From: Anadara kagoshimensis
Taxonomy: Eukaryota; Mollusca; Bivalvia; Arcoida; Arcidae
NCBI GenBank assembly: GCA_021292105.1
Contig: CM037863.1
Span: 13,188,542-13,252,541, forward strand
Length of the DNA: 64,000 bases
Direction: 5' to 3'
In this document: one piece after another, positions 3,001 to 47,785 of the stretch
Position numbering within the stretch: the stretch's first letter is position 1
How the letters are laid out: every line of letters starts with the position of its first letter
Notes under the pieces: generated by a model
The model's input: the letters and a program-made list of their open reading frames with translations, nothing else
The model's database searches: none
What the model was told of the DNA's origin: nothing
Position numbers and translations under genes: made by a program

Positions 3001-6000
3001 ACAGATCTATGCCTGAGCGGTGAATGAATTATTCAGTATTCTGTGTTCACGGGTCTTAATTGGATTAAGAGATTAACAGTGTCCCGTGTTCACAGCCTTA
3101 TTGGAGTATGGAGATTAACAATCAAAGCGAAAGTTCGCATGAATTATGTGTTCGAACACGACTCATCAAGTTGTTGCTCTTTAATTCCTGTTGACAATTC
3201 TTCTATGAACAGGTCAAGTACATCTATATTGATTTAAATTTTAAACTTTTAAAAGATGAATTATTATGTTCTCATCAATAATAATAATTATAATAATAAA
3301 ATAAAAAACAAGAGGCCCATGGGCCTTATACGCTCACCTGATAACTAATGGCTAGCTGATAGATTTAAAGAAAACATAAATACTAAACCCCAATGAATTT
3401 TTTCTTTACATCAAAATGATCATTGCATCAATACCTACAACATTCTAATATACATGCCTATACAAAACTTTTATAGTTTTCAAGATAATTAACCATTTCA
3501 GTATTGTTTTCGCATCTGTGACCTTGACCTTTGAACCCATGACCTTTTTCTATACGTCAAAATGATCATTGTATCAATACCTACAACATTCTAATATACA
3601 TGCCTATACAAAAAGTTTATAGTTTTCGAGATAATTAACCATTTCGGTATTGATTCGCATCTGTGACCTTGACCTTTGAACCCATGACCTTTTTCTATAC
3701 ATCAAAATGATTGTTGTATCAATACCTACAACATTCTTATATACATGCCTATACAAAAAGTTTATAGTTTTCGAGATAATTAACCATTTCGGTATTGTCT
3801 CGCATCTGTGACCTTGACCTTTGAACCCATGACCTTTTTCTATACATCAAAATGATCGTTGTATCAATACCTACAACATTCTAATATACATGCCTATACA
3901 AAAAGTTTATAGTTTTCGAGATAATTAAACATTTCCGTATTGTTTCGCATCTGTGACCTTGACCTTTGAACCCATGACCTCTTTCTGTACATCAAAATGA
4001 TCGTTGTATCAATACCTACAGCATTCTAATATACATGCCTATACAAAAAGTTTATACGGGAAATGTATGTATTATGACGTCATAGAAAATTGTGGAAAAA
4101 TTCTATAGACCGTACGTCCAAATCATTTGACGCCGCGCGTGCACCACTTTTCTCACTTTTCTCAAGGCCATTGAAGGGGTCAAATCGACAGGAAGTGAGC
4201 TCCATATGGGGGAAAATCTCGCCCGTCTCGTTCATCAGAAATGAAACCAAGAAACGATTATCGTGAAAATAATTCATTGAAACAAGTAATAATTTAAATA
4301 GGTTGATCGAATACCAAATATTTACGTTTCTTTCGCCGTTCTGGCTGATCTCCAAGTGTAGCGTTTCAAGATTCGCGATGACGTGATTTCTTTTGATTGG
4401 GTCAAAGTTCAATTCAGATCGATAACCATTGTAAGCCAATCAGCGACCGACTTTCCCACGTGCATCAACCATGATCACACAGTATACAATGCGGGAAGAT
4501 ACAAAATTTGCCGATTTCAAGTTAGATAAATCGATAACCATAGTTACCTGACACAAAACTATTACGAGGTTAGCATAACCACAGTATACGACTTCTACGG
4601 TAACTCTTTTTCACATATTACTTAATTGAATCAAAATTTTGAGTGCATCTGTGACCCTCGCTGAATGCAGTGTAAACAAAAATGGCGATCGTCAGGACGG
4701 GAAAGACGTTTTCACAAACGATCGATTTTTAAAAAAAATAATAAAATGCGTTTTTCGAAGGAATTAATTAACAGTTCTTCCCAATAATCATTTTTATGAA
4801 AATATAGATAAAATTTATTGAATTTATTCCGAATTCAATGTAAATATTGACAAATCCTCTTGTTTGTTTACATGTGACGTGGATATCATGATCAGCTGAT
4901 CGAGCTGGACCAGAAAAGTGCTGACTAAAACTGACTTCAACTACAATGACTGCACTCATCAAAAATCTAACTTGGACATAACTGATGAGGAAACTGTACA
5001 TGTTGTGCAATGAGATGGACCGCTGTCCCAAAAAGTTGTGATAAAAATAACAACAATAATACATTCATGTTGAGTTTAGCAGCTGAAATCCACTTACTGT
5101 AGGTAAGGTCTGAATTGACTCCTTGAAAACCTCCAGGGATGGCGACTGGACTACTGATGCTGGCAGGGGATTCCAATAATTTAGTTCTCGGAATGAATAT
5201 AAAAATTTTAACTAGGGTAAAATCAACATTACCTTCTTCAATATCCCAGACTTGGTTCTCGAAAAAAAAGTTGGTATAAGTGAATAAATGCCAATTTCCA
5301 CTCCACTATCCACATAAGCGACCATTTCAATATAAATCTTAAAGCACCATCTTTCTGTATATCATCCCAGAATGTTCATTTCAATTTAGGTGAATAATGA
5401 ATAATCTTGACTGGGGTAAAAAAAAACTACATCCCACCATCCTAGAATTAACCGTCTCGATATAAGTGAAAAGGCATTTTTAACTCTCTGGGGCTGGGGC
5501 TCTTCATGCAATGAAATTTAAAGGGGCTGGGCTAAAATTGACATTATTTCGGTACAAGCCTGTCAAGTTTTAATCATATCATTTGTCACTTGCAATGGTC
5601 TGTGCTTTAGAAAATTCTCATCATGGTACTATATGGTTGTGAATGTTGAAGGTGTAAGAGGAGCTTACCCTCATACCACTGTATTAATATCGGGTTGTGG
5701 GTTAAAGGTGCTGCCTAACAGAGTCACAGACAAGCATTCCACTCCCAATTAATATAATTCTATAACCAGTCGATAATCTATCCTTTAAGCCAAATGTGGC
5801 TTGCAAAATGAGGAAGCAGTAACTCAAATTTTGAAGTATTGTCATGTATAACACAAGTCAGGTTGGAACCAAAAACCTTCCACTCTCCAAGAGGATGCTA
5901 TACCATTGAGCAACCAAGGCGGTCACAAACAGAATAGATTGTTGACCAAGGGATATTGCAAGCCTAGGCTTATCAGGGCCTTCGGCAAAAAGTTTTATGA

Positions 6001-7752
6001 CCATCATCACTGTTTGATGTCTCTGTGTCCAATATTGACCTGGATGTTTTAGTTCCATGTTCTCTTCACTTAATATTGATTACACAACTGGCCCGGTGTA
6101 GCTAGCTAACAGAAGGTGCTTACCATTCCAGAAAACTCGGTCTCACTTCCCTGGTGGAAGTTCGCGTGTTCAGTTTCAAAGTTTTTTTTTTACTTTACTC
6201 CCGGATTGTGATTTGGACATGGATTAGTATGTTTGTTTTTCATAGGTATAGCTGCTTCATTAATTGAATGGGGCAATCTTGAACTGTGATATGATACACA
6301 TCTTGTTTTAAGAAACAGGAGTAGTTATTTATGCAATCCATAAATCAGTAGATTAAATTATTCACATGGTATGGTAAAATGTGATTTAAGATGAGAAGAC
6401 ATTACAACGTGAGAATGTTGTCGTGGTATGGATTAGTATATTCACTATATTTGGTAATTGAATAGCCTTTTGTGTCCCTGGAAAGATCATACCAAAACTC
6501 AGTTCTGTGTGACAGAACATGATTGAAAGATGACGCAAGAACTCGGCGGTAGTTAACTATAGTCGGTCCCACTAGTATTTGGTGAGACAAAACAATGTGT
6601 GCCATCCCTGTTTTGGGTGGGTGTGTGTGTGTATGTGTATGTATATGTGTGTGTGTGTGTGTGCACAATAACCCGATAATAAATTTGGACATTTCCCGGG
6701 ATAGGCAATGCCTATTTTCATATTAGTTTTCGAGATAATTAAACATTTCCGTATTGTTTCGCATCTGTGACCTTGACCTTTGAACCCATGACCTTTTTCT
6801 ATATATCAAAATGATCGTTGTATCAATACCTACAACATTCTAATATAAATGCCTATACAAAAAGTTTATAGTTTTCGAGATAATTAAACATTTCCGTATT
6901 GTTTCGCATCTGTGACCTTGACCTTTGAACCCATGACCTCTTTCTGTACATCAAAATGATCGTTGTATCAATACCTACAGCATTCTAATATACATGCCTA
7001 TACAAAAAGTTTATAGTTTTCGAGATAATTAAACATTTCCGTATTGTTTCGCATCTGTGACCTTGACCTTTGAACCCATGACTTTTTTCTATATATCAAA
7101 ATGATCATTGTATCAATACCTACAACATTCTAATATAAATGCCTATACAAAAAGTTTATAGTTTTCGAGATAAGTAACCATTTTGGTATTGTTTTACATC
7201 TGTGACCTTGACCTTTGAACCCATGACCTTTTTCTATACACCAAAATGATTGTTGTATCAATACCTACAACATTCTAATATACATGCCTATACAAAAAGT
7301 TTATAGTTTTCGAGATAATAATTATAATCAGAGGTAAAAAAAATTAGGTCACGACCTTCACAATTGACCTTGACCTCAATTTGAAGATACTAACAAGAAG
7401 ATGTCAAAACTGAAAACCCCATGTCATTATCTGGCCAAATAGTCAAGTTATAACAATTTGAAGCTATTTTATGATTTTTTCAAAATTAAACGCAAAAACG
7501 CGTAACCTATTTTTTGTCCGAATTTCACAAAATGAACAAACTATAGGCTAAAGACCCTAGAGAAGCCAAATATCACATCAGATTTTTTCTCTAATCAATA
7601 CTTTCGGAGAAGAAGATTTTTTAAGATTTTTGCACCCCTAGGTCACCTTGACCTAGTTATGGTAGCCATGGCAACACCACGAACAAATTTGAATTGCACC
7701 GACCAAGACATGCATCTGACCAAGTCTCGTTGAAATCTGCCCAGTGGTTCGT

Positions 7753-7794
<42 letters not shown>

Positions 7795-7823
7795 GACGAC
7801 GACGACGACGACAGACAACGGAC

Positions 7824-7855
<32 letters not shown>

Positions 7856-9382
7856 TGGCTCAGGTGAGCTAATAAAATCAATTATTAGAGGAAAATAAGA
7901 ATAAATTGCTTGCATTGATTTAATTTGGTATCATTTTAAAAAAAATACAAGAATTCTGATTACCGGTCGCGACACATGTTGCAATCAAACTTTTTTACAT
8001 TTAAGGATCAATTTACCTTAAATGGTTTCATTTAGTTTGACAGTATCTCATGTATTAATTATTATTAGGCCGATATACTTCAGCAATCACAACTTAAGAT
8101 CGTGGAACCACAACCTTGCCTGTATACAGCTGATATTGGTTATCGTGAATTCTGGTCAACTCGCCCCCTAACCAACTCGCCCCCTTCCAACTCGCCCCCA
8201 CTATATACCAACTCGTCCCCATGCTAACTCGCCCCATTACCAACTCGCCCCCACTTATTTTAAAGTCAACACCAACTCGCCCCAACTTATACCAACTCGC
8301 CCCAATATATAATAATTAAAAAATAATGAACAGAATAAAAATTTATTATTATGATTATAATATTATAAATTAAATCGACCTGTTCTAGAATAGACTTGTG
8401 TTTTGTCATTATGTAAATGTATTGTACATGTAAATTTTTATTTAAGCTGGATAAAATATGATGACGGTGTCTAGGTCAGATTAATCTGATATGCAGTAGT
8501 CAGGGCATTTGTCATCTTATTTTATCCGACTTAAACCAATATCCAATATTATTTATGTTGAATGAAAATGTACTGCCATGTAAATGTTTGTATAATATAA
8601 TATGATTCAAATAAATATATAAGTCTATGGATTCATTTAGTTTGTAATTATTATTTCCGCTTTAAAACGTTGTGCAAAGTCAAGATTCTTTCACTTATTT
8701 CCATCGAGACTGTCAATATTCTAGGTTCACTTATGTGGTCATTTCTGGAGTGTGTTTAGTGGAGTATTTTTGTTTTACGCCACAGTCAAGATTCTTTCAT
8801 TTCATGGTCAGGGGGCGAGTTGGTAACGTCAAGGGGGCGAGTTGGTAATGTCAAGGGGGCGAGTTGGTAGGGGCGAGTTGGTTAAGGGGCGAGTTGGTAG
8901 GGGGCGAGTTGGTTAGGGGGCGAGTTGGTTAGGGGGCGAGTTGACCAACAGCCTACTACCTGCGCTATACGGCCTTAAGTGTAAATAATCAGTCCGTTTT
9001 TAAAACTGCCTTCTACTTTAAAATTATTTGGAAAATATGAAGTTCTGACATACAGCATTGGCACTGACCAGTTGAGAGTGCCAGGTTCTGGTAATATCAC
9101 GCCAGGTGAAATGACATTTTTGACCAAGTGGGAAAGATTACCAAAGTAGAACAAGCAGTTGTGAACTACAAGCTGTACAACATGTGTTTATTGTTTGGGT
9201 AACGAAAGTCGAAAAATACTGCTTATTTCGTTGACAGATGTTGTCTTTAGTAGACGGTTCTCTCCACATGTACATTTATTATGAAGCAAACATTGTGAAA
9301 TATATACAAAGGTTGTTTTTAAATGGTACTTGGTTGATTTTTGGCTGTGTTTACTTACGTTTCCCTTCCGACTCAACGCCAT
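95..9382 (-). CDS. SF3B6: Splicing factor 3B subunit 6 (SF3b14/p14), 5' three exons, C-terminus off the left edge
   Basis: Small RRM protein of the U2 snRNP SF3b complex that contacts the pre-mRNA branch-site adenosine. Three coding exons join in frame on the minus strand: 9359-9382 (MALSRKGN, then a GTAAGT donor), 890-1008 (starts [17 protein letters not shown]; acceptor CAG, donor GTAAGT) and 95-233 (starts [16 protein letters not shown] and ends QANK before a GTAAGT donor). A Val codon is split across the second junction. The 94 residues seen follow human p14 almost residue for residue: RNP2-like ILYVRN, RNP1-like [10 protein letters not shown] and the [23 protein letters not shown] stretch in part. 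Tyr20 corresponds to the human Tyr22 that touches the branch adenosine (family knowledge). The remaining ~30 residues must lie in an exon left of base 1. The start is the only ATG giving a correctly phased donor, and human p14 has a comparable short basic leader. The identity is very secure; the 8-codon first exon is slightly less so. Confidence 0.95.
1009..1970. other. SF3B6 intron 1, near part: no recognised feature
   Basis: AT-rich intronic sequence. No reading frame of interest and no repeat that I can pair with another place in the window. Confidence 0.6.
1971..2105 (-). repeat. Short interspersed element, inverted copy of the ends of the 8085-8990 element
   Basis: The left part (CACTTAAGGCCGTATA, then GCAGGTAGTAGGCTGT) is the reverse complement of 8950-8985. 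The right part (ATCAGCTGTATACAGGCA, then GGTTGTGGTTCCACGATC) is the reverse complement of 8098-8140. Only a few dozen bases separate the two ends here, whereas in the 8 kb copy a palindromic block of about 800 bp lies between them. Confidence 0.65.
2700..3130. repeat. Degenerate repeats around CCCGTGTTCACGGG
   Basis: The hairpin-forming word CCCGTGTTCACGGG and decayed versions recur near 2933, 2990, 3040 and 3083, each followed by similar 'TAATT..GATTAA..GATTAA' text. Just upstream, a GTCAAGAATATTTCGTGT unit is repeated twice (2710-2750) and AATAGATCGTG twice (2778-2806). This appears to be an old tandem array with no coding content. Confidence 0.55.
3380..4056 (-). repeat. 145-bp tandem array of copy 1, part 1
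   Basis: CCTACAACATTCTAATATAC recurs at about 3434, 3580, 3725 and 3870, a spacing of 145-146 bp. Each unit contains TGACCTTGACCTTTGAACC followed by CATGACCT. The array breaks off at 4056, inside a unit, where foreign DNA begins. Confidence 0.9.
5065..5211 (-). pseudogene. LINE reverse-transcriptase C-terminal remnant
   Basis: On the minus strand, after an in-frame stop, 48 codons read ...[18 protein letters not shown], then [12 protein letters not shown] and a stop. The pattern R-x(2)-N-x-WN-x-LP-x(2)-VV-x(2)-PSL-x(2)-FK is the hallmark end of non-LTR retrotransposon ORF2 proteins (RTE/CR1/Jockey-type). Only this tail is present, so it is a 5'-truncated, dead fragment. The clade cannot be named from it. 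Confidence 0.7.
5850..6060 (-). repeat. Possible tRNA-derived SINE fragment
   Basis: On the minus strand, TTGGTTGCTCAATGGTATAG followed by a hairpin-like CTCTTGGAGAG and GGTTTTTGGTTCCAA resembles A and B boxes of a tRNA promoter. No second copy was found in the window, so this is tentative. Confidence 0.35.
6618..6662. repeat. (TG)n microsatellite
   Basis: An interrupted run of TG with TATG variants. It makes a false His/Thr-rich reading frame on the other strand. Confidence 0.9.
6724..7320 (-). repeat. 145-bp tandem array of copy 1, part 2
   Basis: Continues the array broken at 4056, with four more units (motif positions about 6768, 6914, 7058 and 7200). It is followed by the unique 5' part of the element. 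Confidence 0.9.
8085..8990 (+). mobile_element. Interspersed element carrying a nested palindromic block
   Basis: The ends (8085-8148 and 8947-8985) match the short inverted copy at 1971-2105. Between them sits a block bounded by GGTCAACTCGCCCCC and GGGGGCGAGTTGACC, listed separately. This suggests insertion of the block into an older element. Confidence 0.6.
8153..8946. mobile_element. Palindromic element with tandem-repeat inverted termini (GGGGGCGAGTTGGT)
   Basis: The left arm (8153-8305) is a run of about ten CCAACTCGCCCC(C) words with short AT spacers. The right arm (8812-8946) is a run of about nine GGGGGCGAGTTGG words, exactly inverted. About 500 bp of AT-rich, non-coding DNA lies between. 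No transposase frame is present, so it is non-autonomous if it is a transposon. Confidence 0.7.
9359..9382 (-). CDS. SF3B6: SF3B6 first coding exon (8 codons)
   Basis: Encodes MALSRKGN and ends exactly at a consensus GTAAGT donor in phase 0, matching the phase-0 start of the exon at 890-1008. The basic residues before the RRM match the human KRAN leader. It lies 368 bp from the divergent D52 start codon. It was chosen because no other in-phase ATG-plus-donor of similar character was seen in the intervening 8 kb. Confidence 0.8.
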
Positions 9383-9750: not shown

Positions 9751-12700
9751 ATGTCAGCTGCACAGAATGGTGGAAAAGCATTGGATGACGAAAAGCCAAA
9801 TGGTAGGTTTAAAAAGCAAGTTCTTGGAATCTTGTTTACTTGAAAAAATGACTCATTTTCAGCTGTCAACATCATCAACGTGGCTGTTTTGATTTCCGTG
9901 ACACACAAAATTAATTACCACAACAGAAACATAATAATGACCTTAGAATCATAAAGAATATTTGTTTTGAATGTAAGTGTCGGTCTAATTTATTTTCACA
10001 TATAAAAAGAATTAAAACAAAGCTATGCTGTCTACTTGGGGCAAAAGGTTAACAACCTTTAGCTGATTAAGCAGTCCCATTTAGGCATATAGCCAAGGTG
10101 AGGAATAATATTGTACTCAGTTGACAGAGCCCTCTGCGTACCTTTGGAGTTAGTTTGTTTGACAACATTATAAGTCGCATTTAGTTCATAGTAAACACAC
10201 TTTCTCAGTAAACATCCTTGTTGCTTCAAAGTTAAGCTTCCTGCTTGAAGCTTCTGTTGTTATCTAATCTGCTGAAATCTGCTTTTATTATGAATTTGCC
10301 TGGTTCCTCTAGAACATACTCACACAGCATATTTGTCTGATAGATTGGCCATACTCAATGCTGACATTAATATTCAGCAACCCCTTTGCTTAACATAACT
10401 CATCAGCAACCCCTTTGCTTAACATAACTCATCAGCAACCCCTTTGCTTAACATAACTCAATTCATCAGAGAATTCCACAATACTATCCGAACACATGTT
10501 CTCGGTTATATTTATCTTATCTGCCAAAACTTGTTGATCTAACCACTGCGGTAGCTCAGTTGGTAGAGTGCTCTCTCTGTAAATAGGAGGTTGTGGGTTC
10601 AAACCCCGACTAGGTCTGACCCAAGACTTGACAGTGGGAAGTGACTGTTCTTTTGCCAAGCATTCAGCATTACGAAATGAAAGTCACTGTTCTTTGGGAT
10701 GGAAACTTAAAATAAACGAAGTCCTGGGTAAGGGTAGGTTTGGCATGATAAAGAACCCTGCTGTATAATGCTATCAGCACAACACACAGGAAAAATTTCT
10801 GTACCTTCGCCTATAGCTAGCAATGTCTCGATATAAGTGAAAAATTCTTAACTGGGACATTAAACACCATTACTCAGCTCAACTCTGTTGTTGATTTTCT
10901 TCTTCCAATAATGTGCCTGGTTCCTCTGGAACAACACTCACACTCATAATTGTCAGATTGACTTACTTAATTAGTCCTCTTCGTGCTGGGAGCACATAAG
11001 GCCTTGACCGAAGACTTCCATCTCTGCCTGTCTGCTGACGTTTTCTGTATTGTGCCCCACATCCATCCTTGTTGTTTCATTTCCTTTTCGACTGATCTTC
11101 TCCAAGTCTCCTTCGGTCGTCCTCTGCTTCTTTTACCAGGTTGACTTACGCTCTTTGTTTATGAAGAGAATTGCTAACACCCTGCTTTATGTAACCCAGT
11201 TCATCAGAGCATTCCACATTACTGTGTCTGGTTTATCTTTTATTTTTACAGCATACTTGTCTGATTGACTTGTTAAAACAAGTGTCAATAACATTCCATC
11301 TTGGATTTTGATGAGTGTCGCCATTTAAGTTGAATTTAATTTGTGATGCCCATACTTAATGCTGGAATTGAAATCCAGCAAGCACCTTGCTTAATCTAAT
11401 CTAATTAATCAGAGCATTCCACATTCCACAATGCTGTTTGTACACATGTACTGTATGTTTCTTTCTTGCTGCTCCCTAAAGTTTATTAGCTATTTCATCT
11501 TTAAGTTCTCTGTATTGTCTTGGGTTATTTGATAGATTGTCCCATTAGATGCTGAGGTTAAAATTAAGCTTGTCTAAGCTTACCTAACTTAATTTGACAT
11601 ACAGATCTATATAAACATTCTCCGTAAGTGTGAGGTCATAAGTTCAAACCCCAACCGGGTCTGACCCAAGACTTGAAAGTAGGTAGTGACTGTTCTTTCG
11701 CCAAGCACTCGGCATTACAAAATGAAAGTCACAGTTCTTTTGGATGGGAACTTAAAATAAACGAGGTCCTGTGTCATGGTAGTCGTGGCACAATAAAGAA
11801 CCCTGCTGTTTAATGCCATCAGTGCAGCGCACAGGCAAAATTTCTGCACCTTCACCTATAGATGGCGACATCTTGATATAAGTGAAATATTCTTGACTGG
11901 GATGTTAAACGCTATTACTCAACTTAACTAACTCTATATAATTATAAACATTCATTATACATTATTCTACAGAACATCCTGGTTTATCCCTGCTTGTTGA
12001 ATGTTGGAGTTAAACAGTTCTGCTAATTTGACCTATATTCCTTATAATAAAAGCAACTTATTTAACAAACACTCTGCTTGAACTTTCCCTAAACTTATTT
12101 GACAGAACATCAAATTATACTCGAGATTTTTTTGGAATTGGCCAAAGCTAATTTGACAAAGCATCTTACTTTTGTTGAACATTCAGCAAACACCTTGCTT
12201 AATATAAAATAAACTTAATCCATTACAAGAACTTGCTTAATGTTTTAAGATAATTTTATAAGCAATGACAACCATGTAAACCTAAAATTCTGATTAACCT
12301 TTTTGTAAAATTGACTAAATGGCATAAAGTTGGCGGTTTGTCAAAATTTATGATAATTAACATCAAATCATATCTTTCATAATTAATCAAATAAATGTAA
12401 AATTTTTGTGACCGATTTCACCCAAATGAATTATTTTTAGCTTAAATGAATATAGCCAGCTGAGCTAATGACATTGTAAAGCGTGCATGCATCTATCCAC
12501 CTGTCTGTCTGTGTGTGTGTAAACTTTGATATTCTCCTCTGAAACCACTGGGCCAATTAAAACCATATTTGGTTGTAGAGGGTCCTTGGTAGAGAAAATG
12601 AAAGTTTGTACAAGGTGACCCAGTATGAAATTCAAGATGGTCACTGTTACTAAAAATAGCAAATTCACGGAAATGGCCATTGTGGTTCTTCAATTTTCTT

Positions 12701-15700
12701 CAAATTTGCATGTGCAATATAGAAAGTAGATACCTGGTCATTTAACATATGTAACAGGTTTTTCCGAGAAATTTTTCATCCACCCAATTTTAGCAAGTTA
12801 TGCAAATGAAGTCAGATTTTGCCATTTGAGCATTACAACAGGCCCTTTTGGACCTTTTGTTGAAAAGATCTATTAATATATGTCATCACAAACATGTTTC
12901 CCTTTCTTATATGACAATTTGCCTAAAATCTCTGAGTTTGTAAATTTTCAAATCTTTAAATTTGTTTATATGCACTAAAAGCTTTTGTTTTGTCTCATGA
13001 GAGTATGTATTGGGGTCAAAATGTTCTGTAACTTTACAAGAGGATAGCATAGCAGTGTGATAACAGTATTAACACTGCTAGTCTCCATGGTTGACTACAC
13101 ATTTTCAAAATATCTGCCTAATTTTGATGAGACTCGGAGTTTAATATGTTGAATGCTTGTTGATTAAACAAAGTAACTAGATTTTTGTATACCCCACCTT
13201 TCGAAGAAAGAGTGAAATATTAAATTTTAGTTTCCTTTTGTCAGTCTGCCGTCTGTCTGAAATTGTTGTCTGCACTATTTCTCCAAAATTAAGAAGCACT
13301 ATTTTAAGAAACTTGGTGCAAAGTATCAACATTGATAGAAAATGTCCATATTGGTAACCCAAGTTGGTTTGCTCATTTTCCAGAGAGTTATTGCCCTTTA
13401 CATAAGTGCAAATCACAAGAAAAAACCTCTTGGCGGGGAATCCTAATTCACTGAATTTGCTTGTTTTACCACTTCTCCAATGTCTTTGCATTGATTTGTT
13501 TCTGGTAGAAATTTGTGTTTCCGACATCTGTACTTTCACTTGTTTTTATTTGATGGATTTAGCTAGGGTATGCTATTTTATTACTTACACAGTATGTTGG
13601 TGACCTAATATGGTTTTATACTACATATCAGGCAAGGGTGAACATTCAATTTATTCAGCATATTGCCCTACTTAACCTTATACAGCTAATTTGACAAAAT
13701 ATCCCATTTAAGCTTCAGTTACCTGTAAGTTTATTTTGCAGAGTGACCATGACCTGAATGACCTTGAAAACATGATAGATAATAAAAATATGTCTGATTT
13801 TAAACATAGAGATGTTTGTATCATTGTTTATCTTGTAAAAGTTTGTAAAAGGTGATCATTACCATGTAAGAGGGAGTTGAGTAATGGTGTTTAACATCCA
13901 AGTCAAAAATATTTTACTTATATCGAGACATTGCCAGCTATAGAAGAGGTCCCCTGTCATGTTGGTGTGGCACAATAAAGAACCCTGCTGTATAATGCCA
14001 TCAGTGCAATGCAAAGACAAAATTTCTGCACCTTTGTCTATAGCTAATGACTTTTGTATTTTTATTTTATTCTTTTTTTACTATTTGTTTAAAAATTATA
14101 AAACTCAAGTTACTTTGCCTAAACTGTTAAATTTTAACTTTCACCTTTGACCTATTACCTTAATAATTCTTCCTTTTAAGAATATGTATTGTTGTATTTA
14201 GTTGAGTTGAGTAATGGTGTTTAATGTCCCAGTCAAGAATATTTCACTTATATCGAGACGTCGCAAGCTATAGGCAAAGGTGCATAAATTATGCCTGTGC
14301 GTTGTGCTTATGGCATTATACACTAGGGTTCTTTATCATGCCACACCTACTGTGACACGGGACCTCGTTTATTTTAAAAATAAAGTTTCCATCCAAAAGA
14401 ACCGTGACTTTCATTTCGTAATGCAGAGTGCTTGGCGAAAAAACAGTCACTACCTGCTTCAAAGGATTGGGTCAGACCCTGTTTGGGTTCGAACCCATGA
14501 CCTCCCATTTATGGAGCGAGCACTCTACAAATTGAGCTTCTGCAGTAGCATATTGGTGTTATTTAGGTTGATGTCATGAAATTCCATTAGGACAGGGGTC
14601 TCAGTGGCTGAGTGGTCTAAAGCATGTTAGATTTACGGACCACAACACCTCTCATTGCCTAGGTTTGAATCCCATTCGGGCATATCCTTGTGTGAGGAAG
14701 TTTGTCAGTTCGCTTACCAAGGGTCGGTGGTTTTTTCGTGGCACTCTAGTTTCCTCCACCATCCCAGAACTGACTGTCTTGATATAAGTGAAAAAATCTT
14801 GACTGGGGCATAATACACCATCAATCCCATCTAATTCATATTTTATGGAAATAATTATTCCACTTCAGTAGCTCAGTCGTAGAGTGCTCGCTCCGTATGT
14901 GGGAGGTGGTTGGTTGGAAATCTGACCTTGTCTGACTCAAGATTTGAAAGTGAGTAGTGACAATTTTTTCCCCAAGCTGATAGATCGGCATTACGAAATG
15001 AAAGTCACAGTTCTTTCGGATGGGAACTTAAAAATATGAGGTCCTGTGTCACATGGGGGAGGGATACAATAAAGAACCCTGCTGTATAATGCCATCAGCG
15101 CAAGGCACAGGCAAAATTTCTGCACCTTCACCTATGACTGGCAATGTCTCGATATAACTGAAATATTCTCGACTCAACTTAAATGTTATAGGTTATAGAA
15201 CATTGAATTGCTGTGATATAGAAAAACTTGGATAATAAATAAAGTCCCAGTACCTTACTACACTTAGAATGAATAGAATACTGTCACTTATAACAGCTGT
15301 TGGTGTTTGTCATTTTCTTCATTGTGTAGCCTGTACAATGTTATATAGGAATTAAATGATCAGTGACCTTGTTATAACTTGGGGTATAAAACTTGCAAGT
15401 CTTGATAAACAAGAAGTCCTAGTATTTAAAAAGGCCCTCAAAATATTTTCAAAACAAAAATAGATTATGGACTTACAGTGTGTTAATGTATCTTGCATGA
15501 TGTTGACATTACAAAGTGACAGATAGCCTGAAAGACATCATATGCTGGTCATAACGACTTCAGAGAGTGCTGAATGGTCTAAATCACATGCTTACAGGTC
15601 CCAGGGACTCTCATCCCGTAGGTTCGGAACACACTCGGAGCAGATCCTAGTGTTAGAAAGTTGTTCAGTCCGCTTTCAGAAGGTTCTCCATCATTCCAGA

Positions 15701-16339
15701 ACTGAATTTCTTGCACCCCAGATAGAAAAATCCATAAAAATTGAGGTGCAAGATATCTCCATCCTGTAATCCCCCCTCTCCCCACCCTGTGCAAGATAAC
15801 GTACATGCTGTTTTTCCCGCAAAATTTTATCAATAAAATCAGAGGTGTATCGATAAATTGAAATTGATTTAAAATTGAAAAATTGTACTTTCTGATGCAA
15901 GAAATAGAATCGATCACTACTTGTGGTGCCAGATAAGGAACTCTCAACCCTCGTTCTAATATATTTGGTCCAGAACTCAGCAAGCCTGGACTATTAATAA
16001 GTGAAGAATCTTGACTGGGGCATAAAACACTATTACTCCTTTCCACTCCATTACACTTCACTCCACTAGATTAAACAAATTGATGGATGTATGTATCTTA
16101 AAAGATGTTGACATTTCAACATGACCTATGACCTTGAACTGCTTGAAGACAATTTGAAAGATGGCCTCCCCATATTAAAGAAGTACAGGGGTAGATTAAA
16201 CTTAGAGATAGATGGATTTGGGAGTATATCCTGTTAAACATGCTAGTCATTATTAACATTAGGTCTTAATTTTAAAGATAGCCTTCCAAATTATTGAATT
16301 ACCAGGGGGTATATGCAGATTGGAAAAGGGGGTGGATGA

Positions 16340-19300: not shown

Positions 19301-22300
19301 TATATTCCAAAAATTAGCAATTCGGCAAATTATCTAAAATTTCTACAACTCGTCCATGATGGCGGTCATTCTGACGATGAAAATGTGTCGCATGGAGATG
19401 TGGATGATTATGAGGAAATGATTGGTGGAATAACATCTGCGGAATCAGATCTTGTTATGAGATCCACCAATGAATTGACAGAAGCAGGTGGGGATAATTT
19501 TGTTTGTCAGTACATTTTGGAGTAGGCGAAAGCTTTACATCTTCTTTTCATAAAAATAGCAAAATGGTTAGATATTAATTCAATGCTATAGATGCCAGTC
19601 TGTGAGGCATAATGGCAGAATGGTCCAAATAACCTGACTTGGGATCATAGAAACTCTCTCATCTAGAGTTGTTTGTTTTATATTTGGGAGCTCATAGACT
19701 GAACACTGGTTCTTTAAATATACAGTAAACTAGATAAGGGTACACAGTACTACTGCCATAACTCAGTTGGAAGATCCCTCTCTGTAAGTGGGAGGTCCTG
19801 GGTTTAACCCTGATTGGGTCTGTCTTGAAAGTGGGTAGAGACGATTCTTTCGCCAAGCACTCAGCATTGTTAAATGAAAGTCACAGTTCTTTCAGATTGG
19901 AACTTTAGATAAATGAGGTCCCATGTCACATAGAAAGGGCAGGATAAAGAACCCTACTGTATAATGCCATCAGCGCAATGCACAGGCAAAATTTTAAACT
20001 TAGTCTATAGCTGGTAACATCTCAATACAAGTGAACTATTCTTGACTGGGATGTTAAACAGCATTACTCAACTCAACTCTTTCTAGATAAGGTTTGACAT
20101 TAAATGATTTAAAAGTTAACATCCATACATGTATTAACGGCCAAAAAACGAGAAGACATTCCTTTTGAAATATATGTTGTCAAGGATACCTGGTGCATAT
20201 GTGTTTAATACCTAACTGACATAATGAATTAGTTATTGTCAGACATGCATTTATATTAGTTGATAGACAAACAATTAAATGTAAATGACATCACTCGCTT
20301 TTACGACACAATAAGGTGTATGTGTCTTAGTCATCAGGTATATTGATTAAAAAATAAATGGAGATTTTAAGTTTGTCAAGTATAAACTGAAAATTTTACA
20401 TTTTATGTTTTAATTGACTGATCATAAGATGTCATGTAGTTTTCATTTTGAAAGTTAAAAAAATTAGAATTTTTAAAATTAAAGTTATGGTAAACAACAA
20501 CTTATAACATTCTAAAAATGAAGGATTTTCTTTACTGTAAAAATTCTATAACTATATGATCTAGAATAAAAACACTAGTTGTAAAATTCGGGTATGTGGG
20601 GTGGTTGGGGATTGATAGTCATAATAATCACACAGCTTCCCATTTATACTCCAGTGTCCATACAAAGTCAGGAGTTTTATAATCAGTGGTCCCATAACTC
20701 TAAATATGTGTCTGTCTTTTCTTGTTCTGTTTGACTCTATCTGTCATTAGGATTCTTGGTTCTGTTCAATGGACTTCGCCGCTATACCACGTGATACCCT
20801 CTAACGTATGTGCGGAACACTTATTTCCAATGGATATAGAATAACATGAGATGACGCGAAAACGACATTATTCCTGGAACCTATGATGTTGACGTTTTCC
20901 AAAACGTTCCGCACAAACGTTAAAAGGTATTGATCATGTGGTACAGCGGCGAACCCCATTTCAATGATCAGACTGTATATCAAGTTGCACTTTTGTAGGA
21001 TATCACTTATAATTTTGTGAAATACAGTAAAACATGAATGTAACGAACACACTTACAACGAATACATGAATAGTATGAAGTCAAATATTGACCCCGGCCA
21101 CTGCTCTATATAAGTCTATATATAACAATATAACGAAATGGCTTTATAACGAAGTTAAAAATAGAGTCCCGAGGGCTTCGTTATAAATGTGTTTTATTGT
21201 AATATGTTTGAAAAAACAAAGATTTTTCAATAATCTTGATAATAAAGATAAGTTTTGAATAAAATTTTAGAAGTTTTTACCAATGTAGAAGATGATAATG
21301 ACAATGTCCGCATTGACCAAGGTGACTCCTTTTACTTACAAGACAAAAAATTATCTTTATAACTACAATCTATACAGGTTTAACTTCCTGTATTACATGT
21401 ACTTGTTTGCTAGCTACTACACACATCATATGTATCAGTTTACAGTAGGACAGAATGAAAATTTTAGTCAGTCACGTTGTCTTGAAACTTATACTTTTCA
21501 TTCTGAAATGAACGTTTTATGACATTATGAATTCATCTATATTTGAAAACATACTTATTGGTAAGTTTAGAATTTTTCCATGTTTAAAAAAATATTCTTA
21601 TTTGTAAGTTTAGAATTTGTCCAGTTAAAGAAAAGTTGAGACTTCATCCATGTTTGAATGGTTTTGGAAGCATGTAGCTCGGTTGGTAGTGTCAGACTCC
21701 AGGTCTATAGGTTGTGGGTTCGAATCCCAAAAGGGCATGGCGTAACCTTAAGCAAGATACTTCAATTTACATTGATGCTGACTTACCTGATGTCTGTAGG
21801 ATAATAGACCAATGGGTCCTGCAACCTCTGTAACTGTTGTCTCGGTGAGTTAGGACCTGAAATCGATCTGAGCGTGCACAAAGCAGACATGTACTTAATA
21901 CACACTATAAGTCATGGTTACATCAGCCTCGTCTTAGTGTGATAATGCTGACATTAGCACCACAGTGCAAAGATTAAAATGCCCCTCTTACAAGCCTAAG
22001 GATTACTAAAGGTTTGTTAAAATTGATCCATATATATAACGATACTTATGGGTAAGTTGTAAGACATCATATATCATAATTAATTAATACAATTGTAACT
22101 TGGGTTTTCTCAAAAATCTTTTTCAATATTATCAGATGAGCATTTATATGACAACATGAATTCACCAACATTTGAGGACGTACCCAAGGATGGTGAGGAA
22201 AAGGGAGATAACCAGTTGAGCGAGGCTGAAAGACAGAGACAAATAGAGGAATGGAAAGAAGAATTAACCAGAGTAAGTGTTGTTGTTATTGGAACTAATA

Positions 22301-29100: not shown

Positions 29101-32100
29101 TACAAATAAATGTATGACTTTATGAGTTTGACTTCGGGCCCTGGTGACCAAGTGGTCTTATGCATGCATACAGATCAGTTGGCTTCAATACCATTAGGGC
29201 AGATCCCAGTGCAAAAAAGTTTCTGAGTTTGCTTGCTAAAGGTCAGTGGTTTTCTTTGGGCACTCTGGTTTCCTCCATACCAGAACTGAATGTTGATGTT
29301 TACCCTGGAATAAGTGAATAGGACATTACATTCACCATTAATCCAATCCAAAGTTGATTTATTTGACTGTTAGAGTGATTGGACATGCATATCATAATTG
29401 GCAGCATTTTAAATTTGTTAAATGAAATAAGAAAGTTTGCAAAATTAAAATATAATATTAAACTGTCTTTAAAGTGTGTTTATAATGCTATAATCTCTAC
29501 CGCTAAACCAATCGTTATTCATAATCTTCTAGCACTTGTTATTCAGTTTGCTTTGCACGGCAACGAAAGTCATAGCACTATAAACGCCATTTCTAGACAG
29601 TTTAATGGTTAAATAAATTCCATCTTATGACCCTTCAGTGGTTAAATATGTAAAGTAAGCAGCAATAGACACAGCAAACAAATGAAAATATGCTTAAATT
29701 TTTAAGAAAATTTGTCATTTGAAAATCTTGGGGTGTTCAAATATCGGCAGTTTTCTTTGGGTTTCTTTTACTATCCTAGAACTGGCCAGCTTAATGTAAG
29801 TAAAAGTATTTTGACTGGGGCATTAAACACCATTTCATTTCTCAATCTGCTAAAATGTGTACCAGAAAGTGAAAGAAACTTGACTAGATGGTGTTTAACA
29901 CCATTTCTCAATCTGCCAAAAAATACTTACATTTGATTAACATTTTGTATATTTACAGGTACCAGAAAACATCATCAACATTAAAAACAGCTGGAGAGAA
30001 AACTAGTACCGCAGTATCCTCCATTGGAGCCTCCATGTCTAAGAAAATGGGAGAAATAAGGTAATACTGGTACAGTTAAACCTCGTTATAATGCCCCTCG
30101 ATAACTTTGCCACCTCGCTCATCGCCACACTATTTTGAAGTCCCAAAATCCATTTTGTATATGTTTTTCTTTATCCACCTCCCCCAATTCATTGCCAAAC
30201 CCCTTTATGTGAATGAACAAATGGTGGCGATGAATTGAGGTTTTACTGTACATTGCTTGACATTTTTGTTAGGTATCAAAGTTAAAAATTACATTTTTGT
30301 GACTTGTAAAACTATTTGTTGGAATTAAAATGATATCTATGGAAGATGGTTAAGTAATTTTGTAATCTTCAATGTATTTCAGAAATGCTCATGCAAACAT
30401 TTAAAACTATAAAACATGGTCAAGTAATGGGGTTCGCCACTGTACCACGTGATTAATACCTCTTAACATTTGTGCGGAACGTGTTGGAAAACATCAACAT
30501 CACAGATTCCCGAATTATGACGTCGTTTTTGCGGGAAAACGTCATCTCATGTTATTCCATATCCATTGGAAATAAGTGTTCCTCACAAACGTTAAGAGTA
30601 TATCACATGGTACAGCGGCAAACCCCATTAATAAATGCAATATTGGCTCTGCTCTGTATTTCGGACATTCTCAAAGTTTGTAATTTATGGAAGATGGTTG
30701 GATAAATGGTAACTCTCAATTTTAATACTGTTCTGTATTTGTTTTAGGAATTCTCAAACATTTAAATCTATGGAAGAGAGAGTAGGAGATGTTTATGCCA
30801 ATGTAAAGGTATGAATATGAAAAAAATATTTATTATATGAAAAATGTAATTATGACAATTAAGGCAGACTGGTGGAGTTTAATGTCTACATGTGGCTAGT
30901 CACTGGTCAGCAGTTAAGGCAATGTTGTCTTTTAATTCCTCAGTGAGAATTTTAGTTTCTCTGTGAAATCATGATTACATTATGATGGCATACAGATTTA
31001 CATTGATGCCATTTGTTGCCATAGTGATAAAGTTTGTTGCCTACAAGCTGTGTTTTCATTCCATGTATCCAAAATTGGAAAAATTCATGCAAAAAGAAAC
31101 CTTTTTTGCAAATTTGTGGGGAAAATACTTTAAAAATTACCAAATTCACTGAGTTTAGAAATTTGGTTACTAAAATATTTAAAGCTGTGGAAACCTGGTA
31201 CATTTATACAGGGAAAATAAATATTTTTAGTGGGGAATTAAAATACAATGTTGCCAAGAATAAAGTTCTTGTTTTATTTCATACCAAACTTATTCAGGGA
31301 TTGAAACCCTGGTGTTTATTAGATCACATGTACAAAGTAGGGTAGCGACTACATATGTCATTTACCCGGTGCAAGCATCAAAAGTACCTATTGTATTTAT
31401 TCAGTTAAGAGTATTGGTGTCCAGGAATAAAATGCTTTGGTTGAAGTTTTTCAGTGTGGTAAATTTGCATTTGAACTAAGCTATTCTTTTGAATGCTCCT
31501 TTATTATACAATTATAGCACTTTTTATAATCATTGAGAATAAGAAGACATTTTATCGAAGTTTGATATTATAAATCTGGATTTCTAAAATGGATCAGAAA
31601 TATTTTTTGTTGGTGTATGTGTGCGTGTGTTTTAGATTTTTATGTATTTTATTTTCATCAGACATCTCGATCAATAGAAAACATAAGAGGACGATTTGGT
31701 TTGGTGAGTTAGATGATAGGGTTCACACAGATAACTTTATTGATTAGTTGCCAAGAGACCAAAGTTATAAAACAAATAATATTCTCAGATGGAACTCGCC
31801 CATAATATCCCATGTTAATGTAGGAATTTCAATATGTAATCTTATAGGTTGACTTTTTCCCATAAAAACCATGTTATTGAGAGAATTTATGACATAACTT
31901 TTCCAAAACATATGGTACAAACATTATGGGGTTCAATCATGTGATATGCCCAAGAACCCATTATTAAATTAAGAAATTAATACTTCAATCTCTATCAAGA
32001 AAATATTTAAGTTCTGATGTGGTCTTAAATGAAAATTATGAAATGGCATATCACAATCAAGGTAAAAATTTGTGACATATACACTAATAGAATCAAATCA

Positions 32101-35555: not shown

Positions 35556-35850
35556 GGAAGCGCGTGGCCTAGTGGTTAAGGCGTTGGACTCATGATTCGA
35601 AGGTCGTGGGTTCGATCCCTGGACCGGGCAATGTGTTGTGTCCTTGAGCAAGACACTTAATTTCACATTGTTCCAGTTCACTCAGCTGAAAAATAAATGA
35701 GTACCAGTAAAATGTTGGGGGTTAACCCTGCGATGGACCGGCGTCCCATTCAGGGGAGAGTCTTGTACTCTCAGTCGCTTAACGCCACCGAAACCGGGAT
35801 AAGCTCCGGCCTGATGGGCCTAATGGTTCAGGACAGACTTTAACTTTTAA
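35556..35850 (+). repeat. SINE type C with well-preserved tRNA head
   Basis: The head GTGGCCTAGTGGTTAAGGCG and GTGGGTTCGATCCCTGGACC gives clear A and B boxes. The body contains the widely shared metazoan SINE core CGATGGACCGGCGTCCCATT. Single copy in the window. Confidence 0.8.
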
Positions 35851-43330: not shown

Positions 43331-43569
43331 TCTTTTGAATTATTTTCCCACATTGTTTTTGCAGATTTTCATACATTTGTTCCCTCTTTGTTTGTTATCT
43401 GTATCATACTATTTTTTGCTTGGCATTTTAAGGATTTTGTTTCTTTGACTTATAGTAGATTATTTATTACTGAATACTCTACACACCCCATAATAATAAT
43501 AAAATGCTTTAAATAGAAACTGTGTATTTGTTTTATAACAGGATTCAACTCCTGTTTGTGTGGAACAAG

Positions 43570-45755
43570 AGTTGAGTTAAGTTGAGTAATGATGTTTAAT
43601 GTCCTAGTCAAGAATATTTCGAGATATATCAAATACATATTATATAAAGACGTCACCAGCTATAGGTGCAAAGATTTAGCCTGTGTGTTGTGCTGATGAC
43701 ATTATACAGCAGAGTTTTTTAGCTCAACTGGCTTTAGCCAGATGAGCTATTGGCATGATGCGTGCGTGCGTCCGTTAACAGCAAAAACTCTGAAACTACC
43801 AGGCCTTTTGAAACCTGATTTGCTGTGCAAGGTCCTTGCTAGAGTCTGACTGTAGATTGTACAAATCATGGCGATTAGATATCCAAGATGGCTGCCGTTA
43901 CAAAAAATAGAAAAAACTTAAAAAAATCTTCTTTTCCAGAACCAGTCATTGGAGGAAAAATCTGATTTGATATTTGGCTTCTAGATGGTCTTAACCTCTT
44001 AGTTTGTACATTTCGTGGAATTCTGACAACAAATAGGTTACGGGTTTTTGCGTTTAATTTTGCAAAAATCGTAAAATAGCTTTAAATTGTTTTAAATTGT
44101 TATAACTTGACTATAAGGTCAGATAATGGCATGGGGTTTTCAGTTTTGATTTATTCTTGTAATTACCTTCAAAATAGGGTCAAGGTCAATAGTGAAGGTC
44201 ATGACCTAATTTTTTGACTTTCTGATTTTATTTATTATCTCAAAAACTATAAACTTTTTGAATAGGCATTTATATTGGAATATTGTTGGTATTGATGCAA
44301 CGGCCATTTTGATGTATAGATTAAGGTCATGGGTTCAAAGGTCAAGGTCACAGACGTGAAATAATACTGAAACGGTTCATGTATATTAGAATGTTGTAGG
44401 TATTAATACAACAATCATTTTGATGTATAGAAAAAGAACATGGGTCCAAAGGTCAAGGTCACAGAGGCAAAACAATACCGAAATGGTTTATTATCTCAAA
44501 ACTATAAACTTTTTGTATAGGCATGTATATTGGAATATTGTTAGTATTGATGCAACGGTCATTTTGATGTATAGATTAAGGTCATGGGTTCAAAGGTCAA
44601 GGTCACAGATGCGAAATAATACTGGAAAGGTTCATTATCTTGAAAACTATCAACTTTTTGTATAGGCATGTATATTGGAATATTGTTGGTATTGATGCAA
44701 TGGTCATTTTGATGTATAAATAAAGGTCATGGGTTCAAAGGTCAAGGTCACAGATGCAAAATAATACTGAAACGGTCCATTATCTTGAAAACTATAAAGT
44801 TTTTGTATAGGCATGTATATCAGAATGTTGTAGGTATTAATACAACAATCATTTTGGTGTATAGAACAAGGTCATAATTCCAAAGGTCAAGGTCACAGAA
44901 GCAAAATAATACCAAAACAGTTCATTATCTTGAAAACTATAAACTTTTAATATAGGCATGTATATTAGGATGTTGTAGGTACTGATACAACAATTATTTT
45001 GGTGTATAGAAAAAGGTCATGGGTCCAAAGGTCAAGGTCACAGAAGCAAAACAATACCCAAATGGTTCATTATCTTGAAAACTATAAACTTTTTGTATAG
45101 GCATGTATATTGAAATATTGTTGGTATTGATGCAACGGTCATTTTGATGTACAGATTAAGGTCATGGGTTCAAAGGTCAAGGTCACAGACACGAAAGAAT
45201 ACTGAAACGGTTCATTATCTTGAAAACTATAAAGTTTTTGTATAGGCATGCATATTGGAATATTGTTGGTATTGATGCAACAGCCTTTCCTGAAAAAAAA
45301 TTGTTGACCCAATTTTAGGCAGTGTACAACAAATAAGATGTTTGTTTCAATCACATAAGTTGTGTCTGGCATATCAGCCAAAATCCAAGTTGGCTTCTGT
45401 TCCTATACATAGCAATAACATGAAAAACCAATGCAAATTTGGTTTCCAACCACTTTGGTTCCAGTTGCAATTGTAAAAAAGAGGGGGAATGCCATTTCAC
45501 AAGATTTGCATGTTATTTATCAAAAATGTAAATTAGCTGCCAGTTGAGCATCACAGGCCCTATTGGGCCTCTTGTTTATTGTGCCAAGTCTTCCGTGAGA
45601 CGGGACCTCCATTTTGTAATGCCCAGTGCTTGAAGAAAGAACAGTCTACTACTACCTACCCTACTTTCAAGGACTGGGTCGGACCTGGTGATGGTTCGAA
45701 CCCACCACCTCCCACTTAAAGAGCAAGCTCTCTACCATCTGAGCTACCGCAGTGG
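43570..45755 (-). repeat. SINE type A interrupted by a Helentron-like element
   Basis: 43570-43720 is the inverted SINE tail and part of the body, up to ATTATACAGCAGAGTTTTTT. 45576-45755 resumes with TTATTGTGCC and runs to the tRNA-like head (GAGCTACCGCAG). Removing 43721-45575 restores a continuous SINE. Confidence 0.8.
43721..45575 (+). mobile_element. Helentron-like element, copy 2
   Basis: 5' palindrome AGCTCAACTGGCT/AGCCAGATGAGCT, then GCGTGCGTGCGTCCG, a unique region, an array of about seven 145-bp units (44220-45280), and a 3' hairpin AGGCCCTATTGGGCCT followed by CTTGT. No open frame for a replicase, so non-autonomous. It follows a T run, like every other copy here. Confidence 0.7.
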
Positions 45756-45767
45756 TCTTATGTGGAA

Positions 45768-47785
45768 CAAGGGTGTTCACCAGTGTACCATGTGATACCT
45801 TATAACATTTCTGCAGTTTCTGAGATGGAATCGCTTCAGTAGACATTTTTAGCTCACCTGATCGGAAGGTCATGTGAGCTTATGGCATAGCGCAGCGTGT
45901 GTATGTGCGTGCGTGTGTGCGTGCATCGTTAACTCCTATTTTCAACATCTCCTCTGAAACTACAAGACAGATTTCAATGAAACTTGGAGAGAAGTATATA
46001 TGGGCCGGTGCAATTCAGACTTGTTCATGGCATTGCCATGGCTACCATAACTAGGTCTTAAGCCTATAGTTTGTTCATTTTGTGAAATTCGAACAAAAAA
46101 TAGGTTACATTTAATTTTGAAAAAATCGTAAAATAGCTTCAAATTGTTATAACTTGACTATTTGACCAGATAATGACATGGGGTTTTCAGTTTTGACATC
46201 TTCTTGTTAGTATCTTCAAAATAAGGTCAAGTTCAATTGTGAAGGTCGTGACCTAATTTTTTTTACCTCTGATTATAATTATTATCTCGAAAACTATAAA
46301 CTTTTTGTATAGCCATGTATATTAGAATGTTGTAGGTATTGATACAACAATCATTTTGATGTATAGAAAAAGGTCATGGGTTCAAAGGTCAAGGTCACAG
46401 ATGCGAAACAATACCAAAATGGTTAATTATCTCGAAAACTATAAACTTTTTGTATAGGCATGTATATTAGAATCAGGGCCCCACTAATCACCAAAATCGG
46501 CTAAAAATCACTGAATTGGCAAATAAAACGCCGAATTGAAATTCAGTCATTCGTTTTTTTTCCCCATATAAACCTTCTAAATTTTGTCTTGTCAATTAAG
46601 ATTAGTTCAAGATCGAGAAATCACAAGACTTTAAGATGAAGCCACGTGTCCCACAGGTGTACAATCGATGTGATATTTGGCTTCTCTAGGGTCTTAAGCC
46701 TATAGTTTGTTCATTTTGTGAAATTCGAACAAAAAATAGGTTACGCGTTTTTGCATTTAATTTTGAAAAAATCGTAAAATAACTTCAAATTGTTATAACT
46801 TGACTATTTGACCAGATAATGACATGGGGTTTTCAGTTTTGACATCTTCTTGTTAGTATCTTCAAAATGAGGTCAAGTTCAATTGTGAAGGTCGTGACCT
46901 AATTTTTTTTACCTCTGATTATAATTATTATTTCGAAAACTATAAACTTTTTGTATAGGCATGTATATTTTAATGTTGTAGGTATTGATACAACAATCAT
47001 TTTGATGTATAGAAAAAGGTCATGGGTTCAAAGGTCAAGGTCACAGATGTGAAACAATACTGAAATGGTTAATTATCTCGAAAACTATAAACGTTTTGTA
47101 TAGGCATGTATATTAGAATGTTGTAGGTATTGATACAACAATCATTTTGATGTATAGAAAAAGGTCATGGGTTCAAAGGTCAAGGTCACAGATGTGAAAC
47201 AATACTGAAATGGTTAATTATCTCGAAAACTATAAACTTTTTGTACAGGCATGTATATTAGAATGTTGTAGGTATTGATACAACAATCATTTGATGTATA
47301 GAAAAAGGTCATGGGTTCAACGGTCAAGGTCACAGATGTGAAACAATACTGAAATGGTTAATTATCTCGAAAACTATAAACTTTTTGTACAGGCATGTAT
47401 ATTAGAATCTTGTAGGTATTGATACAACAATTATTTTGATGTATAGAAAAAGTTTATGGGTTTAAAGGTCAAGGTCACATATGCGAAACAATACCGAAAT
47501 GTTTAATTATCTTGAAAACCATTAACTTTTTGTATAGGCATGTATATTAGAATGTTGTAGGTATTGATACAATGGTTATCATGATGTAAAGAAAAAAGGC
47601 ATTGGGGTTTAGTATTTATCTTTAAATCTATCAGCTAGCCATTAGTTATCAGGTGAGCGTATCAGGCCCATGGGCCTCTTGTTCTGAAAAAATGACGTTA
47701 CTCTGCGAAATTTTGACGTAAACCTTTTCTAAAACATTCTGCACAAATGTTGAGAGGTATTGATCACGCGGTATGCTGGCGAGCA
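45768..47785. mobile_element. MITE family 2, copy F, split by a Helentron-like element
   Basis: 45768-45850 (GTGTACCATGTGATACC...) is the left half. 47683-47785 (ACCTTTTCTAAAACATTCTG...GGTATTGATCACGCGGTA) is the right half. The right terminus is then partly duplicated at 47803-47855. Confidence 0.7.
45851..47682 (+). mobile_element. Helentron-like element, copy 3
   Basis: 5' palindrome AGCTCACCTGATC/GTCATGTGAGCT, GTGCGTGCGTGTGTGCGTGC, array units at 46260-46480 and 46925-47600, and a 3' hairpin AGGCCCATGGGCCT plus CTTGT. A middle segment (46475-46670, with CGGCTAAAAATCACTGAATT) interrupts the array. After it, part of the unique region (GTCTTAAGCCTATAGTTTGT) appears a second time, so the copy has an internal insertion or duplication. 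Confidence 0.7.

Follow-up and report, generated by a model that had tools for sequence, protein, structure and literature searches.

Tandem units of 145 bp make up the central part of three Helentron-like elements, here called E1, E2 and E3, in a 64,000-nucleotide stretch of the Anadara kagoshimensis genome (assembly GCA_021292105.1, contig CM037863.1, forward-strand positions 13,188,542 to 13,252,541; hereafter the window, with positions counted from its first letter), and most of these units contain a motif that resembles binding sites of nuclear receptors. This raises the question as to whether the motif is a passenger of array duplication or a site that is kept better than the rest of the unit and, if so, which part of it is kept. 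An initial annotation of this DNA had read the motif both as a direct repeat with one spacer base (DR1) of the HNF4/RXR type and as the extended half-site of ERR/NR5A receptors, and had proposed that it is better conserved than the remainder of the unit. As detailed below, the better-kept part is the extended half-site together with a direct repeat of AGGTCA without spacer (DR0), not the DR1, and AGGTCA is also enriched in the left flanks of the elements, outside the repeats. The carriers are non-autonomous Helentrons of the HINE type with short 145-bp arrays:

3307..7872, minus strand: E1, HINE-like, delimited by self-comparison, with its 5' end at 7872, its 3' end at 3307 and a foreign insert at 4057-6723
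43719..45577, plus strand: E2, HINE-like, of another subfamily, with the subterminal inverted repeat (subTIR) TTAGCTCAACTGG and two intermixed monomer variants
45849..47683, plus strand: E3, HINE-like, same subfamily as E1, with its left flank and first unit partly duplicated inside the element

Retention of a DR0 within the 145-bp units

Allowing up to three mismatches, TTCAAAGGTCAAGGTCA matches 20 times in the window, against a mean of 0.27 and a largest count of 2 in shuffled sequence; 15 of the 20 matches are exact and the other five carry one mismatch. Eight lie in E1 (minus strand), seven in E2 and five in E3 (both plus strand), exactly the 8/7/5 that had been counted before. The full 19-mer of the initial annotation is exact in 15 of the 20 units, and its description of the remainder as having "one to two changes" suits most units but not the one at 44879, which has three changes over the 19-mer. 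The second AGGTCA reported ahead of the motif is present as well (exact in 17/20). The dense receptor-type arrays are thus real, with 20 sites at a spacing of 144-145 bp within the arrays, the exception being one shortened E2 unit of 111 bp, and the motif has the same orientation relative to its element in all 20 units. The 145-bp arrays are also detected by Tandem Repeats Finder (TRF):

3399..4056, minus strand: distal array of E1, four motif units (motifs 3519-3535, 3664-3680, 3809-3825, 3954-3970)
6724..7319, minus strand: proximal array of E1, four motif units (motifs 6768-6784, 6913-6929, 7058-7074, 7203-7219)
44235..45288, plus strand: array of E2, seven motif units (motif starts 44334, 44445, 44589, 44734, 44879, 45024, 45169), the second of them shortened
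46282..46474, plus strand: first array piece of E3, a full unit with motif 46381-46397 and then a truncated unit
46927..47593, plus strand: array of E3, four motif units (motifs 47027, 47172, 47316, 47461) and a terminal unit without the motif

Units were also located with a profile of their motif-free left part; because 18 of the 20 motif-anchored units went into this profile, it is not fully independent of the motif. It yields 24 unit pieces, 20 of which lead into the motif. Two pieces (45215-45288 and 46427-46474) are cut off ahead of it, and two are terminal units (3488-3402 and 47507-47593) that enter the right flank with a degenerate motif remnant only, so that the motif is kept in 20 of the 22 units that reach its position. 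Within the motif-bearing units, the DR0 AGGTCAAGGTCA is exact in 19/20 and the extended half-site TCAAGGTCA that it contains in 20/20, and the DR1-like GGTTCAAAGGTCA is exact in 15/20. Counted with up to one mismatch, the window has 28 DR0 matches where 0.23 would be expected; the elements contain 25 (20 in units, five in flanks), and the other three lie outside (13744, 16129 and 26473).

For the conservation test, the 20 motif-bearing units were aligned, a tree was built from the columns outside the motif, and parsimony on this tree gave the number of changes at each site; p values refer to non-CpG sites only and come from permutation among sites of the same base. The four motif-less unit pieces were left out of the alignment, columns gapped in most rows were removed, and foreign left ends were masked before counting (the first 20 columns of E1_3970 and the first 44 of E2_44445). 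For the 145 sites of the unit this gives 100 inferred changes in total, and the 11 CpG columns account for 22 of these. Across the 20 units, the DR0 AGGTCAAGGTCA has one change in 12 sites (p = 0.0021), the extended half-site TCAAGGTCA none in nine (p = 0.0027) and the 19-mer CAAAGGTCAAGGTCACAGA three in 19 (p = 0.0015), compared with 0.57-0.65 changes per non-CpG site in the remainder of the unit, a value that varies with the window excluded and is 0.62-0.63 for the DR0 and the extended half-site. Seven of the 145 circular 12-mers have at most one change, and every one of them overlaps the DR0. The consensuses of the three monomer variants show 13, 9 and 20 differences, none of which lies inside CAAAGGTCAAGGTCACAGA.

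These data show that the earlier proposal of a better-kept motif holds for the 3' part, that is for AGGTCAAGGTCA and the ERR/NR5A extended half-site TCAAGGTCA, and more weakly for the 19-mer of the initial annotation (five changes in 19 sites, p = 0.011), and that it is not borne out for the DR1-like 5' part or the upstream AGGTCA. We reject the DR1/HNF4 site as the constrained part, as GGTTCAAAGGTCA (GGTTCA-A-AGGTCA) has five changes in 13 sites (p = 0.16), mostly in its GGTTCA half. The upstream AGGTCA is likewise rejected as a member of a constrained triple site (p = 0.80; p = 0.05 for the three half-sites jointly). Compared base by base across the 20 units of the window, the DR0 and extended half-site are slower than the rest of the unit and the DR1 half is not. 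What had been overlooked is that AGGTCAAGGTCA is also a perfect DR0, a site of the GCNF/NR6A1 type.

Left-flank clusters, element anatomy and surroundings

Also overlooked was the enrichment of AGGTCA, in DR0 and in inverted-repeat layouts with zero (IR0) or three (IR3) spacer bases, in the non-repeat left flank. The E1 flank holds five exact AGGTCA against 0.22 expected and the E2 flank four against 0.20, numbers that are reached in 0 of 2000 shuffles in either case; the second flank copy of E3 holds two against 0.07 expected (p = 0.002). This shuffle test took in E1, E2 and the second E3 copy. A DR0 is present in exact form at 7365-7376 and with one mismatch at 7643, 44177, 46224 and 46870, and the IR0 AGGTC(A/G)TGACCT is found in all four flank copies. 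The IR3 layout is that of the consensus oestrogen-response element. The clusters are:

7346..7376, minus strand: E1 flank cluster, DR0 AGGTCAAGGTCA at 7365-7376 and IR0 AGGTCGTGACCT at 7346-7357
7640..7654, no strand: perfect IR3 AGGTCAnnnTGACCT (AGGTCA-n3-TGACCT) of the E1 flank, present in E1 only
44177..44207, plus strand: E2 flank cluster, GGGTCAAGGTCA (DR0 with one mismatch) and IR0 AGGTCATGACCT
46224..46254, plus strand: first E3 flank cluster, AGGTCAAGTTCA (DR0 with one mismatch) and IR0 AGGTCGTGACCT
46870..46900, plus strand: second E3 flank cluster, again AGGTCAAGTTCA (DR0 with one mismatch) and IR0 AGGTCGTGACCT

Between the E1 flank and the unit consensus there is no common match longer than the DR0 12-mer. 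Since the 12-mer alone is shared, there is no sign that the two descend from a longer common stretch, and a common origin of flank and unit is unsupported. Outside the elements, AGGTCA occurs at 0.72 per kb compared with 0.42 per kb in five shuffles, and AGGTCA pairs in DR0, DR1, DR3 and DR7 arrangement are present at 13.7-16.1 kb (13744-13764, 14141-14160, 16109-16141; also at 26473).

The assignment of the carriers as Helentron-like, made in the initial annotation, is borne out by the subTIRs, the 3' palindrome and the central repeats, which fit HINE anatomy. SubTIRs lie near both ends of all three elements (TTAGCTCACCTGA / TCAGGTGAGCGTA in E1 and E3, TTAGCTCAACTGG / CCAGTTGAGC in E2), and the 5' subTIR is adjoined by an inverted repeat that reads AGCTCACCTGAGCC-AAA-GGCTCAAGTGAGCT in E1 and is similar, with mismatches, in E2 and E3. 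The palindrome at the 3' end is AGGCCCATGGGCCT in E1 and E3 and AGGCCCTATTGGGCCT in E2; that of E3 folds as a short stem, and the stability of the 101-nt region around it does not exceed that of shuffles (z -0.09). Over the longest alignments E1 and E3 are 93-94% identical, and E2 is 82-88% identical to this subfamily. The left flank of E1 carries a microsatellite at the position typical of HINEs, where E2 and E3 have, by eye, short TG/CG-rich runs only. The individual features are:

7860-7872, minus strand: subTIR TTAGCTCACCTGA of E1, with its complement at 3329-3341
3307-3325: 3' palindrome and CTTGTT of E1
7781..7812, no strand: (ACG/CGT) microsatellite in the E1 left flank (TRF)
4057..6723, no strand: foreign insert of 2,667 bp that splits the E1 array, identified from a gap in the E1/E3 alignment and from its junctions
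45540-45577: 3' end of E2, with the 3' subTIR at 45540-45549, the palindrome at 45555-45570 and CTTGTTT to 45577
45849-45861 and 47649-47661: subTIRs of E3, followed by the palindrome and end (CTTGTT) at 47665-47683

The insert in E1 has CGGGAAATGT at its start and carries the same sequence, inverted, 25 bp in from its other end, which suggests that it is another DNA transposon. The join of E2 is crossed by four diverged paralogues of 65-71% identity (14197-14546, 11935-11625, 10885-10542 and 20079-19911), one of which reads CAGCAGGGTTCTTTATTGTGCC at the empty site: a T run with no visible duplication, within which the exact break is ambiguous. A single match of 69% identity within the window (27702-27869) crosses the join of E3 and may be its empty site; for E1 no crossing match is present within the window.

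The paralogues belong to a diverged middle-repetitive family of ~65-75% identity (45590-45760, 10542-10885, 11625-11935, 14197-14546 and 19749-20079). E2 and E3 lie in or beside one of its copies, and the remaining copies supply the E2 empty site. Near 45700-45755 the family contains a stretch that looks tRNA-like by eye and is reported by neither Rfam nor ARAGORN. DNA to the right of E3 (47684-47990) matches 20859-20966, 24878-25047, 27702-27869 and 30434-30491 and represents another dispersed repeat. Elsewhere in the window, TRF detects a 59-bp satellite of 33 copies with 93% matches (56651-58604) and, ~500 bp apart, a pair of short CAACTCGCCCCC-type repeat arrays that are oppositely oriented (8157-8311 and 8810-8943). 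The window has 16 open frames of at least 110 codons; among the 10 that were tested against Pfam, the sole match is a 731-codon frame on the minus strand (52319-54514) with several C2H2 zinc fingers. A weak Rfam tRNA match on the plus strand at 35560-35630 (30.4 bits, gathering score 29), with no ARAGORN call, is possibly a tRNA-derived repeat.

Possible receptor binding and other explanations

The reading that we tentatively favour, with a probability of roughly 0.4, is that host receptors of the NR5A (FTZ-F1), ERR or NR6A (GCNF) type bind the DR0 sites and in this way help the element to mobilise. ERR recognises the same extended half-site as NR5A. Such orphan receptors would bind the DR0 or the extended half-site in the germ line or early embryo, where these factors act in other animals, and the chromatin of a bound element would stay accessible, favouring mobilisation by a Rep-helicase supplied from elsewhere. 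Growth of the array would multiply the DR0 site and transposition would scatter it, possibly with effects on nearby genes. An orthologue of NR5A, ERR or NR6A is the favoured candidate because these are known binders of a DR0 or extended half-site, and because of the receptor complement of molluscs, in which, according to PMC7827873, every receptor subfamily is present, with 43 receptor genes in Crassostrea gigas. GCNF/NR6A1 is described in PMC10909835 as binding a DR0 of AGGTCA and as a repressor needed in mouse germ cells, and PMC11102866 reports that the NR5A2 motif TCAAGG(C/T)CA is targeted in the short interspersed element (SINE) B1 during mouse zygotic genome activation. A far-reaching extension, in which a Helentron family would use germ-line or early-embryo NR5A, NR6A or ERR as landing factors, selection would maintain the DR0 in the flank as well as in each repeat, and the spread receptor platforms would shape host gene control, strikes us as improbable.

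Several points weigh against receptor binding, and many of them would equally suit an origin in which no receptor takes part. The conservation comes from 20 related units in three elements and one window, and the changes are not independent because the units of an element become homogenised (E1_3970 and E1_6929 are near-identical outside the cut end). Sub-windows were picked after the data had been seen, six in the main parsimony test and others besides. Under circular shift, 7 of 145 positions are as slow for the DR0, 6 for the 19-mer and 11 for the three half-sites; by diversity the 19-mer ranks 9 among 145 windows, and the longest invariant run has 13 bases (p = 0.02). A second stretch, AAAACTATAAACTTTTTGT, is likewise well kept, so that the DR0 is not the sole slow part of the unit. 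The upstream AGGTCA has five changes at its six sites, the DR1 half is without constraint, and the motif is missing from the terminal unit of both E1 and E3. Neither is the flank cluster clearly slower than its surroundings, with 3/31 against 37/233 differences between E1 and E2 and 4/31 against 38/225 between E3b and E2, and the DR0 of both E3 flank copies is changed inside TCAAGGTCA. Finally, NR6A is a repressor, so that a silencing effect would be equally possible if it is the factor.

Homogenisation, the small number of elements, the second slow stretch, the modest run test and the unremarkable rate of the flank cluster could all be explained if AGGTCAAGGTCA was chance content at the time of capture or duplication, its 20 copies having arisen by tandem duplication, gene conversion and recent spread, and its low variation being due to chance. 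We consider this explanation quite possible, if short of probable. It would have to account for the fact that every one of the unit's slowest 12-mers takes in part of the DR0, that the three monomer-variant consensuses all have an unaltered DR0, and that the same 12-mer recurs in an otherwise dissimilar flank in which AGGTCA is more than an isolated occurrence (five against 0.22 expected).

Could the motif be incidental to a structural role of the unit, either as a nucleosome-sized satellite or as an internal RNA polymerase III promoter? The nucleosome core is close to 145 bp in length, and GGTTCAAAGG is similar to the initial half of the B box of tRNA genes. We nevertheless judge such a role very unlikely: the units have no Rfam match at the gathering score and no ARAGORN tRNA, so that a tRNA or known RNA family in them is rejected, and GGTTCA is where the motif varies. 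A hairpin-forming unit is rejected as well, the single-strand fold of the one unit tested being no more stable than shuffles (z 0.37).

It is also conceivable, though rather unlikely, that the AGGTCA repeats are read by the element's own machinery, such as the DNA-binding part of a partner Rep-helicase or a replication or recombination protein, and aid transposition or array expansion. The constant orientation of the motif in 20/20 units would fit this idea, as would the AGGTCA enrichment in the left flank and the presence in the subTIRs of AGCTCA/AGGTGA, one change away from AGGTCA; in addition, PMC7492417 suggests that satellite DNA motifs are recognised by transposase-related proteins. Set against this, the account of Helentrons in PMC4067079 sees in the shared ends, namely the subTIRs and stem loops, the signature that transposition probably needs, and no autonomous partner was found, no genome search for it having been possible.

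Comparison with known systems

The carrier type is known. E1-E3 match the HINE features described in PMC4067079, and the likeness to Cg_HINE of C. gigas, as portrayed in PMC7492417, extends to the 5' subTIR with an adjacent complementary inverted repeat, the microsatellite in the left flank, the central array of 138-181-bp repeats in fixed orientation, the 3' subTIR followed by a palindrome, and the T-rich insertion site without duplication. An inverted repeat beside the 5' subTIR is common to Cg_HINE and DINE-1. The monomer of CL6, one of the 13 Cg_HINE clusters, measures 147 bp (PMC7492417), a likeness in length. Likened by description only, the bivalve elements Pearl, DTC84 and MgE (PMC7492417) and CvA (PMC11136912) also have a Helentron-like or comparable architecture; Pearl elements have up to six central repeats of ~160 bp.

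A receptor-like motif in such carriers was not found in the open-licence literature. The main texts of PMC7492417 and PMC8268682 contain neither "nuclear receptor" nor "transcription factor" nor "AGGTCA", the first two terms are likewise absent from that of PMC11136912, and no open-licence PubMed Central full text was retrieved with Helitron and nuclear-receptor terms jointly. Searching the same collection for the motif string gave nothing on mobile elements, as judged by titles, and the one oyster match is a PCR primer. Related sequences gave 0 matches in viral contigs, and a related 20-mer gave one match in genome contigs, to a Nocardia contig, which by estimate is about what chance would give.

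If the sites are bound, the satellite arrays of Helentrons would be ready-made multi-site receptor platforms that are scattered by transposition, and this would point to a role for the central HINE repeats. A Helitron-type element of Drosophila miranda is said to have spread dosage-compensation sites. The closest parallel is provided by the Caenorhabditis Helitrons with heat-shock elements, in which the rolling-circle class likewise spreads dense clusters of one factor's site; PMC6927752 reports that 61.4% of C. elegans heat-shock elements lie in Helitrons and that many gain HSF-1 upon heat shock. There the factor is HSF-1, with binding and induction measured, whereas E1-E3 combine a receptor-type motif with a Helentron/HINE carrier and are described from sequence. 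The mouse SINE B1 offers a likeness on the side of the factor, being a mobile element with orphan-receptor sites of the TCAAGG(C/T)CA type bound by NR5A2 (PMC11102866); it is, however, a mammalian retrotransposon with demonstrated binding, and the elements described here are DNA transposons whose site arrays are known from sequence. Bound arrays in E1, E2 and E3 would be a receptor counterpart of the Caenorhabditis heat-shock-element Helitrons.

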